Virus record (IMG/VR): IMGVR_UViG_3300038421_000138
Location: 1-27,667 of that record
Length of the DNA stretch: 27,667 nucleotides
From: a virus
Direction: 5' to 3' (one strand)
The notes below the pieces were generated by a model. That model made no database searches, was not told the DNA's origin, and saw only the letters and a list, made by a program, of their open reading frames with translations. Of the stretch, positions 15,068 through 18,574 are shown piece by piece (positions within the stretch are counted from its first letter, which is position 1; each line of letters begins with the position of its first letter). A program made the position numbers and the translations under genes.

Positions 15068-15700
15068 GTGCAGCAATCCAGGCCTCTCGACGGCGAGCTG
15101 ATCCCTCCCGGCCAGGACACCAGGTCCCCCGCCCCCAAGGCCCGCACCGACGCCGATATCGTGCTGGAGGAGCTCGGCGAGCAGAACGGCCGCATGGCGC
15201 TCGATGTCTGCGACCGCATCGCCTGCGAGCCACTCGGGTTGGAGGCAATCGCCGGGGATGTCTGCGGGATGGAGGACGGCGCCTCGGCAGCCCGCAAGTT
15301 CTACCGTTGGAGGATGCGCAGCAGCGCACTGCGTCGGATGTACGCGCACGCATGCGCCAGCCGCGCCCACGTCCTCGTCAACCGCATGATGGACGTCATC
15401 GAAGCCGAGCCCGACCCGCACCGGGCCCGTGTCAAGATGGACGCTCTCAAATGGATGGCCGGCAAGCTCAACCGCGCCGACTTCGGCGATGAGCCGCAGC
15501 AAGGTGTGAGCGTCACCATCAACAACGATCGCGGCCAGGCCGCGCTCGATATCATCCGCGAGCGCATCGAGCGCAAGAGGAAAAGCATGCTTACCCAGAC
15601 GGGGGGCAGGGTTGAGGACAGGGGGGAGGGGGAGGGGGACGTGTCCACCATGCCTCCCGCGCTACCCTCGCGTACGCGAGAAGGGGGTAGTGGTGTGTAG
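15068..15700 (+). CDS. terS: Terminase small subunit
   Basis: The GTG at 15068 is preceded by GGGGAAAG a few bases upstream. The 210-residue protein has the layout of Sf6-type small terminases. The N-terminal helix-turn-helix region covers VLEELGEQNGRMALDVCDRI and AAARKFYRWRMRSSALRRMY. An oligomerisation helix region contains VLVNRMMDVIEAEPDPHRAR and the signature KMDALKWMAGKLNRADFGDE (about 124-143). It binds the packaging start site and hands DNA to the large subunit. The last 35 residues or so are low-complexity, encoded by a G-rich stretch and a palindromic element (15646-15695), and probably not functional. Confidence 0.78.
   Translation: MQQSRPLDGELIPPGQDTRSPAPKARTDADIVLEELGEQNGRMALDVCDRIACEPLGLEAIAGDVCGMEDGASAARKFYRWRMRSSALRRMYAHACASRAHVLVNRMMDVIEAEPDPHRARVKMDALKWMAGKLNRADFGDEPQQGVSVTINNDRGQAALDIIRERIERKRKSMLTQTGGRVEDRGEGEGDVSTMPPALPSRTREGGSGV
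15646..15695. repeat. Palindromic element in the 3' end of terS
   Basis: The core palindrome CTCGCGTACGCGAG is at 15667-15680. Outer arms CTACCC (15662-15667) with GGGTAG (15685-15690) and CACCA (15646-15650) with TGGTG (15691-15695) extend it. It is in frame and encodes only the Pro/Ser/Thr/Gly tail of the small terminase. A G-rich run (15601-15639) precedes it. Confidence 0.5.
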
Positions 15701-15759
15701 CTCCCGACCGCGCAGCAGGCATTGTAGCGCAGCAAGCGCAGCTTGGCCTTCTTGTCACA

Positions 15760-15788
15760 TTGGGTGTCAAGATGGAAAACACTGTATA
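15760..15788 (+). promoter_or_regulatory. Possible promoter for the late operon
   Basis: TTGGGT (15760-15765), a 17-base spacer and TGTATA (15783-15788) stand in the unusually AT-rich gap between terS and the next gene. The -35 box is poor, so this is a candidate only. Confidence 0.3.
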
Positions 15789-15813: not shown

Positions 15814-16101
15814 ATGGCCAATCTCTGGGTGAGTGAGTACAGCTGGCCTGCGAAGGGTGAGCCGATAGCGCACGAGCCGGCGTTCCGGACCACGCGGGTG
15901 GTGTTCACGACGGCTACGCAATCGCCGGTGTTCCTGGACGACACGCATTGCGTGCGGCTGGTGGCCGACGCGGACTGTCATGTGCTGTTCGGGCGCAATC
16001 CGACGGCTGTGGTGCAGAGCCAGCGCATTCCGGCCGGCGCCGTGGAGTGGCGGCAGGTGACGCCAGGCGACCGGCTGTCGGTATACGACGGGGTGTCGTG
16101 A
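15814..16101 (+). CDS. Small beta-rich protein of the packaging/head region, 95 aa
   Basis: The product is 95 residues, dominated by beta strands (TTRVVFTTATQSPVFL, HCVRLVADADCHVLFG, AVVQSQRIPAGAVEWRQVTP, DRLSVYD). It has no signal peptide. Small beta-sandwich proteins of this kind are found near terminase genes in many phages and may decorate the head or tail; the exact family was not recognised. It ends with GTGA, overlapping the start of the next gene. The ATG at 15814 has only a weak ribosome binding site. Confidence 0.6.
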   Translation: MANLWVSEYSWPAKGEPIAHEPAFRTTRVVFTTATQSPVFLDDTHCVRLVADADCHVLFGRNPTAVVQSQRIPAGAVEWRQVTPGDRLSVYDGVS

Positions 16102-16826
16102 CGCTGGGGCTGGGGTTGGGGTTGCCGGCGGGCAGGAGGAAGCTGACGGGGCCGCTGGCTGATCTGCTGTCCCTGTCGCCCACGTCCCTGTGGCTGCCGT
16201 TCCAGCAGTACCTCGGCGAGGAGGAGGACGGCACGGGCTCGGTCGACCCGACCGACGCGGCGGGGTTCGCGCGGAACCTCGGCAGTGTCGGGTCCGCGGG
16301 CAATCTTCTGGAGGGGGTGGCTGACCGCCGGCCGGTCTGGCAGGCCGGCGGCGGGCTGCGCTGGCTGGAGTTCGACGGGACCAACGATTCGCTGTCCGCC
16401 GCGCCGTTCGCGACGCCGCAGGGGTTCGACATCCTGCTGGCGGTGCGCCCGACGTCCGTGGACGGCAACGAGCGGGTGCTGGCGACGCTGGGGACGGGCG
16501 GGCGCGCCATCTTCCACACCGCCGCCGGGCAGCTTTCTATGTTCTTCGGCGCGTCGTTGACGGGGCCTGTGCTGGCGGACGACACCGACATCGTCGTCAC
16601 GGCGCGCGTCAACGGCGTGAGCAGCCGCATCGCCGTCGACAACGGCGCATACACGAACGGCGCTGCCGGCAGCAGCAGCGGCACCGCCGCGCAGATCATG
16701 GGGGACGGCCTGGGCGGCTTTTCCGCCGGACGCATCTACGGCTATGGGGTGTTTCCGCTCCTGACCGACGGTCAGACCGCGCTCGGGCGCGCGGCGATGG
16801 GTGCGCTGCAGGGGCGGGTGCTATGA
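16098..16826 (+). CDS. LamG/concanavalin-like structural protein, 242 aa
   Basis: The GTG at 16098 overlaps the previous stop (GTGA). After a short N-terminus (GLGLGLPAGRRKLTGPLADL), the protein shows the beta-sandwich pattern of LamG-type lectin domains: LRWLEFDGTNDSLSAAPF, GFDILLAVRPTSVDGNERVL, RAIFHTAAGQLSMFFG, TDIVVTARVNGVSSRIAVDN and the closing GRIYGYGVFPLLT. In phages these domains serve as adhesion or decoration modules, binding sugars on the host or stabilising the particle. Location between the two terminase genes is unusual. A structural role is inferred from fold and context. Confidence 0.62.
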   Translation: MTLGLGLGLPAGRRKLTGPLADLLSLSPTSLWLPFQQYLGEEEDGTGSVDPTDAAGFARNLGSVGSAGNLLEGVADRRPVWQAGGGLRWLEFDGTNDSLSAAPFATPQGFDILLAVRPTSVDGNERVLATLGTGGRAIFHTAAGQLSMFFGASLTGPVLADDTDIVVTARVNGVSSRIAVDNGAYTNGAAGSSSGTAAQIMGDGLGGFSAGRIYGYGVFPLLTDGQTALGRAAMGALQGRVL

Positions 16827-16897
16827 GCCTGGCGAAGGACCTGGTGGCCCTCGGCCAGGCCGAGGCGGAGGAGGTGCTTTATGCGCACGTGGGATGA
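16823..16897 (+). pseudogene. Duplicated 5' fragment of the large terminase gene
   Basis: The ATG at 16823 overlaps the previous stop (ATGA) and reads MSLAKDLVALGQAEAEEVL, then stops after 24 codons. The first 58 bases (16823-16880) match the start of the large terminase gene (17183-17240) at 49 positions, and the proteins agree almost residue for residue (SLAKxLxALGxxEAxEVL). It is a remnant of a terL start left behind when the gene at 16881-17186 came to lie between the two copies. Confidence 0.75.
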
Positions 16898-17186
16898 GCC
16901 GCCCGAGGTGCGTGGCACGGGGCGCACGACGGATCAGATGCTCCTGATGGAGCGCGGGTCGTTGTTCATCACGCTGCCCCACGCCACGAGTTATGCGCGC
17001 GACCTGCAGCGGCATCTGGGGCGCGAGGGGTTCTTCGAGATTGCCGGGCCCGATGTGCTCAAGGACGGCTGGCACCGGCAGTTTGTCGGGCGGCGCTACA
17101 GCCAGATCGAGGTCGACCACGCGGCGTGCCTCGACGAGCTGGAGGCGGAGAAGCTGGCTCGTGCGCGCGCGGTCTGCTGCCGGTGA
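16881..17186 (+). CDS. Small inserted protein with P-loop-like motif, 101 aa
   Basis: The ATG at 16881 uses a ribosome binding site (GGCGGAGGAGG) that lies inside the duplicated terL fragment. The product has a Walker-A-like GTGRTTDQML near its N-terminus (about 12-21), then a strand GSLFITLPH, a helix YARDLQRHL, and a closing VGRRYSQIEVDHA. There is no Walker B motif of the usual form. Its stop overlaps the terL start (GTGA). Small proteins with an RGTGRTT motif occur near phage packaging genes, but a function was not recognised. A P-loop fold is suggested, not shown. Confidence 0.6.
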   Translation: MRTWDEPPEVRGTGRTTDQMLLMERGSLFITLPHATSYARDLQRHLGREGFFEIAGPDVLKDGWHRQFVGRRYSQIEVDHAACLDELEAEKLARARAVCCR

Positions 17187-18574
17187 GCCTGGCGAAGGAG
17201 CTGGCCGCGCTCGGCAGGACCGAGGCGGACGAGGTGCTTTCCTCGCTCACGCCGGAGGAGCTGGACGATCTCGTCTACAGCTGGCCGACGTGGGCGCGCC
17301 CCGAGCAGCTTGCCCCGGCCTTCGGCAACGACGGCACGCCCTGGAACACGTGGGTCTATCTGGCCGGCCGCGGCACGGGCAAGACGCGCTCCGGGGTGGA
17401 GTGGCTGCGCGGCCAGGTGTGCGGGGGAACGCCGCTCGCCGGCGGGCTCAGGAAGCGCATCGCCATCATCGGCGAGACCTCCAAGGACGTGAGGGATGTG
17501 CTGATCGAGGGCGAGTCGGGTCTGATGGCCGTGCACCCCAAGGACTTCCGGCCGGCTTACGAGCCCAGCAAGGCGCGGCTGACGTGGCCGAACGGGGCGA
17601 TCGCGACGCTCTACAACGGCACCGAGCCGGACCAGCTCAGGGGCCCGCAGTTCGACGGCGCGCTGGTGGACGAGCTTGCCAAGTACCGCTACGCCCAGGA
17701 CACCTGGGACATGCTGCAGTTCGGGCTCCGGCTCGGCAGGCACCCCCGGGCGATGGTGACGACGACGCCGCGGCCGATCCCGGTCCTGAAGGCCATTCTC
17801 GTCGACCCGAAGACGGCGGTGACGCGCGGCAAGACCTACGACAACGCGGAGAACCTGGCCGAGAGCTTCCTGCGCCAGGTGAAGGCCAGGTACGCCGGCA
17901 CCCGGCTCGGCCGGCAGGAGCTGGATGCCGAGCTGCTGGACGACGTGCCGGGTGCGCTCTGGCGGCGGGCGGTGCTGGACGAGTACCGGCGCACCTTCAA
18001 GCAGGTGCCGGACATGCGCCGCATCGTGGTGGCGGTGGACCCCGCGGCGAAGGCCAAGGAGAGCCAGCGCGGCGAGCACGGCGCCGAGACCGGCATCGTG
18101 ACGTGCGGGCTGGGCGCCGACGGGCGGGGCTACGTGCTGAGCGATTCCTCCACGTCGGAGGGCCCGGACAAGTGGGGCCGGTTGGCGGTGGCGGCCTACG
18201 ACCTCCACAACGCCGACGCGATCGTGGCGGAGGTGAACAACGGCGGCGACATGGTGCCGTTCGTGATCCGCTCGGTCAGGCCCACGATCAAGGTGATCGT
18301 GGTGACGGCCTCGAGGGGCAAGTTCACGCGCGCGGAGCCGGTCAGCGCGCTCTACGAGCAGGGCCGGGTGAGCCATGTGGGCTGCTTTCCCCAGCTCGAG
18401 GACCAGATGTGCTCGTTCAACCCGACCGACGCGGAGGACGACACGATCACGCTGAAGGACCGGCTGGACGCGTGCGTGTGGGGGCTGACGGAGCTGTTTC
18501 CGCAGCTGGTGCAGGTGAAGCGCAAGAAGTGGATCGACAAATGGGCGGGACGGCGCGGCTCGTGGATGGGGTGA
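17183..18574 (+). CDS. terL: Terminase large subunit (ATPase-nuclease)
   Basis: The GTG at 17183 gives 463 residues. The ATPase half has Walker A GRGTGKTR (62-69), Walker B ALVDE (160-164) and the coupling motif MVTTTPRP (191-198). The nuclease half starts with IVVAVDPAA (281-289, catalytic Asp286), followed by AEVNNGGD (349-356) and LKDRLDACVWG (424-434, Asp429). This is the order of headful-type large terminases (Terminase_6/COG5323 group). It pumps DNA into the prohead through the portal and cuts it. It overlaps the upstream small gene by four bases. Its first 58 bases also occur at 16823-16880. Confidence 0.9.
   Translation: MSLAKELAALGRTEADEVLSSLTPEELDDLVYSWPTWARPEQLAPAFGNDGTPWNTWVYLAGRGTGKTRSGVEWLRGQVCGGTPLAGGLRKRIAIIGETSKDVRDVLIEGESGLMAVHPKDFRPAYEPSKARLTWPNGAIATLYNGTEPDQLRGPQFDGALVDELAKYRYAQDTWDMLQFGLRLGRHPRAMVTTTPRPIPVLKAILVDPKTAVTRGKTYDNAENLAESFLRQVKARYAGTRLGRQELDAELLDDVPGALWRRAVLDEYRRTFKQVPDMRRIVVAVDPAAKAKESQRGEHGAETGIVTCGLGADGRGYVLSDSSTSEGPDKWGRLAVAAYDLHNADAIVAEVNNGGDMVPFVIRSVRPTIKVIVVTASRGKFTRAEPVSALYEQGRVSHVGCFPQLEDQMCSFNPTDAEDDTITLKDRLDACVWGLTELFPQLVQVKRKKWIDKWAGRRGSWMG

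Follow-up and report, generated by a model that had tools for sequence, protein, structure and literature searches.

A diverged duplicate of the terL start beside a small orphan gene, a probable recombination scar in a P22-coat-like phage

Most phage mosaic joints keep no trace of their formation, and most leave no duplicate of the downstream gene start. The locus described here resembles a moron or accessory-gene insertion in that a small orphan gene lies between two conserved structural-module genes, is absent from syntenic relatives and is probably coupled into the operon by stop/start overlaps; it differs in carrying a diverged second copy, 58 bp long, of the downstream gene start, seemingly reused as a ribosome-binding site. 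Phage mosaic junctions have been attributed to short boundary homologies or to illegitimate recombination (PMC3029335). The present locus shares with such events a low-homology joint at a gene border, but the joint appears to lie inside terL at a Shine-Dalgarno-like stretch, and its history is thus partly readable. Like the MPME elements of mycobacteriophages, the unit is a few hundred bases long, holds a single short frame and is inserted close to the 5' end of a gene; unlike them, it shows no inverted repeats, repeated copies or homologues, and the target gene is represented on its flanks as a long direct repeat. A short literature search found no published case with exactly such a scar. In our view the locus neatly illustrates the mosaicism already known in phages and is not a new system.

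The window (the whole stretch of DNA analysed, 27,667 bases of record IMGVR_UViG_3300038421_000138) is a fragment of a phage from an uncultured virus, and its structural genes, assigned with Pfam and PHROGs, include an Sf6-like terS, a TerL with a T4-type domain, and a P22-type portal and coat. From terS to terL, the order is p95, a 242-aa gene, the short frame opened by the first copy of the terL start (copy 1), and a 101-aa gene (Table 1). Each of these overlaps the next: p95 and the 242-aa gene as GTGA (16098-16101), the 242-aa gene and the copy-1 frame as ATGA (16823-16826), the copy-1 frame and the 101-aa gene over 16881-16897, so that the frame ends inside that gene, and the 101-aa gene and terL as GTGA (17183-17186). 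As the 101-aa gene overlaps both of its neighbours, it is unlikely to be an independent transcription unit.

Table 1. Features of the terS-terL interval and terL, in window coordinates
Feature	Positions	Strand	Basis
terS, small terminase subunit	15068..15700	+	Pfam Sf6_terminase E 1.5e-16; PHROG terminase small subunit
p95 (95-aa gene)	15814..16101	+	53% identity over 87 aa to L005:2784-3071
242-aa orphan gene	16098..16826	+	coding by codon usage
terL copy 1 (58 bases of 5' end)	16823..16880	+	49/58 identical to 17183-17240
24-codon open frame formed by copy 1	16823..16897	+	stop TGA 16895-16897
Predicted Shine-Dalgarno AGGAGGTG within copy 1	16869..16876	+	anti-SD duplex energy
101-aa orphan gene, probably inserted	16881..17186	+	codon-position GC and codon score phage-like
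Copy 2, real terL 5' end	17183..17240	+	GTGA overlap with 101-aa gene
terL, large terminase subunit	17183..18574	+	Pfam Terminase_6N E 4.9e-27 and Terminase_6C; 79-85% identical to L002-L005

An earlier note on this DNA had claimed that the first 58 bases of terL are repeated upstream with 49 identities and that the frame of this first copy stops after 24 codons; both claims were reproduced, the match being ungapped and unique in the window. It is the sole diagonal with at least 42 identities among 379,570,128 ungapped 58-mer pairs, where the bulk of independent pairs ends at about 41. No comparable upstream copy of the terL start was found in 233 related loci (2.5 kb upstream in each; best 34/58). 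Thus, we conclude that the repeat is real and rare. Its left edge coincides exactly with the two start codons. Four bases are common to copies 1 and 2 and absent from the four nearest relatives (positions 31, 39, 46 and 57), which makes the copies sister sequences and mutually closest kin; these shared derived bases and the uniqueness of the match among 3.8e8 pairs place homology to the terL start beyond chance. Additionally, 2.1 Mb of related loci were scanned for other gene-start duplications. Some local 58-bp repeat occurs in 22 loci, the window included, mostly in tandem or within a gene, and no clear second case of a duplicated gene start was seen among those of the 22 that were inspected. 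The arrangement is known from one contig only.

The four near relatives (viral contigs L002-L005, TerL 79-85% identical to that of the window) each have a single terL start, with neither the 101-aa nor the 242-aa gene. The 101-aa gene is absent also from L084 (TerL 68% identical), where terL and portal are syntenic. As far as the relatives' loci extend, synteny holds for portal, coat and most of the other downstream genes tested, and terS is syntenic in L002, L004, L005 and L084, the locus of L003 possibly being too short upstream. These single terL starts without the 101-aa gene, with synteny on both sides, lend good support to the earlier reading of the locus as the footprint of a gene insertion. 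The same note had expected the gene upstream of the repeat, which it called LamG-type, to run straight into the single terL start of relatives. That gene occurs in no relative, and in L005 a homologue of p95 (53%), the only gene in the interval, instead meets terL directly as TGATG. A relative in which the copy-1 segment is conserved as an independent gene unrelated to terL was not seen.

Both orphan frames are coding as judged by codon-position GC and by a codon log-odds score for which ten window genes served as the training set, and the GC of the 101-aa gene by codon position (0.71/0.48/0.89) fits phage genes. The 101-aa protein has no homologues in phages, plasmids, viral contigs, Pfam, PHROGs or NCBIfam, nor in 385 + 369 (754) bacterial genomes of two classes in a search run without a positive control. 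For the 242-aa protein, no family or homologue appeared in any library or collection tried, and the label LamG-type is unsupported, as no family was found at E<0.1 (Pfam, PHROGs) or E<1 (NCBIfam). A weak match of the 101-aa protein in L191 (40.7% over 59 aa) is antisense inside terL and was attributed to chance; a weak match in G001 (E 0.02) and matches in the PDB at E ~0.5 were likewise set aside. Structures modelled from single sequences were unusable (pLDDT 41, and 33 for the 242-aa protein).

Copy 1 appears to serve now as the ribosome-binding site of the 101-aa gene, as the earlier note had proposed. The predicted Shine-Dalgarno sequence AGGAGGTG places GGAGG 6 nt before the ATG at 16881, and its anti-SD duplex has a computed energy of -13.4 kcal/mol; the corresponding bases of the real terL give -7.3, and those of the relatives -6.6 to -8.0 kcal/mol. 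Copy 1 owes this extra strength to a substitution of its own, a G at 16870. The Shine-Dalgarno sequence of terL itself is almost absent in the window (-2.4 kcal/mol), and L002, L003 and L004 likewise have an equally weak one or none, making it plausible that terL relies on coupling from upstream. Stop/start overlaps and Shine-Dalgarno strength together suggest translational coupling on both sides of the 101-aa gene.

The copies differ at 9 of 58 positions (15.5%). Two of these bases are found only in copy 1 (positions 23 and 48) and two only in copy 2 (35 and 37), and the other five differences are unassignable to either. Over the same stretch, terL of the window differs from that of L002 at 11 of 58 positions, and over 1260 bases by 16.1%. 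The comparison with phage divergence proposed in the earlier note thus places the copies about as far apart as the terL genes of neighbouring phages, a value that fits both a duplication within the genome and a joint between two phages. The copies may accordingly represent either an old duplication or DNA joined from two related phages, a choice that nine differences cannot decide. The equal change in both would slightly favour the two-phage joint, since a useless remnant is expected to change faster than a working gene start. Sliding identity gave no recombination breakpoint inside terL; at the 5' end, identity to every relative falls in step. No donor or intermediate, whether a 101-aa gene before terL or a 242-aa gene running into terL, was found in viral contigs, phages or plasmids.

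We consider it probable that an accessory gene, on entering the terS-terL interval of a P22-coat-like phage, left this arrangement behind as a recombination scar. Copy 1 would be what remains of a junction between a gene and terL. A joint with little or no homology would have cut it off at about codon 19, at or near the Shine-Dalgarno-like GAGGTG of terL codons 17-18, and linked it to the beginning of the 101-aa gene. Copy 2 would have arrived with the 101-aa gene or would be the other half of a duplication. The 24-codon frame would receive ribosomes from the upstream gene through ATGA, the strong Shine-Dalgarno sequence in copy 1 would drive the 101-aa gene, and this gene would pass ribosomes on to terL through GTGA. 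Copy 1 may have been kept because its frame receives upstream ribosomes and its Shine-Dalgarno sequence drives the new gene.

A possible but fairly unlikely course is two steps in one lineage, with a tandem duplication of the terL 5' end followed by entry or origin of the 101-aa gene between the copies. An origin within the genome predicts that the copies are mutually closest kin, as seen, yet this course requires two events, the tandem duplicate is absent in relatives, and each copy has 2 unique bases, where the dispensable remnant should have changed faster than the working gene. Quite unlikely, in our estimate, is that copy 1 is a functional leader, regulating either the 101-aa gene or terL through a translated 24-codon peptide or an RNA hairpin. 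The intact frame, its ATGA coupling and its termination just inside the 101-aa gene would suit such a role, as would a 7-bp stem (GCCTGGC/GCCAGGC) that can form in copy 1 alone. However, the frame stays open in 82% of simulations with nine random changes, the amino-acid changes are no more conservative than chance (P 0.20), folding around the 101-aa start is ordinary (z -0.86), and there is one example only.

It is very improbable that the locus is an assembly chimera of two co-occurring related phages, even though it comes from a single metagenomic contig and its two terL starts resemble two strains. Assemblers join sequences at exact shared words, and the stretch shared with terL around the joint (16870-16881) is only about 10 bases; the frames and the Shine-Dalgarno sequence also fit functionally. 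Least credible of all is that the 360-bp unit represents an MPME-type ultra-small mobile element regenerating its target gene. Its small size, single short frame and place at a gene start, which recalls an MPME1 insertion close to the 5' end of a gene (PMC3029335), would fit. However, its ends lack terminal inverted repeats, neither the window nor the relatives contain another copy, searches of phages, plasmids, viral contigs and the 754 bacterial genomes gave no homologue, and its flanking repeat is 58 bp long and diverged.

If the recombination scar is the right reading, a remnant with measurable divergence has survived at this locus, and the leftover start would supply the signal that the new gene needs, suggesting why it was tolerated. 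It is conceivable, though on balance unlikely, that phages can gain genes more generally through joints at Shine-Dalgarno-like stretches in the first codons of a gene, the broken start becoming a ribosome-binding leader for the incoming gene and coupling being kept on both sides. Were this so, the locus would be a readable example of such a route of gene acquisition. As one example, it leaves the general picture of phage mosaicism unchanged.

The terS-terL interval differs from one relative to the next. A small family of 88-101 aa proteins beginning MALGDTTYRG lies there in three of them (L002:4353-4658, L003:181-447 and L004:4717-4986); it is unrelated to anything in the window, and in its place L005 and the window have the 95-aa family, which is not related to it. 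Additionally, an extra gene is present in L002 (6397-6627) and L003 (near 2200-2430) between terL and portal, two genes with nothing between them in the window. In L002 its product matches the Pfam family Tad2-like (Thoeris anti-defence 2-like) at E 1.1e-24, and the L003 counterpart was recognized by eye only. The varied small genes in the one slot and the extra gene in the other suggest that these borders gain genes repeatedly.

A non-coding element 3' of terS (window 15724-15772; L002 4233-4283; L004 4105-4160; L005 2672-2720) is kept in the relatives despite the different genes that follow it, with the pattern AGCGC.GCAAGCG..GCTTG. It may be a terminator, a promoter or a packaging-related site, and in three of the loci a TGTCACATTGGGTGTCAAG-like stretch comes next.
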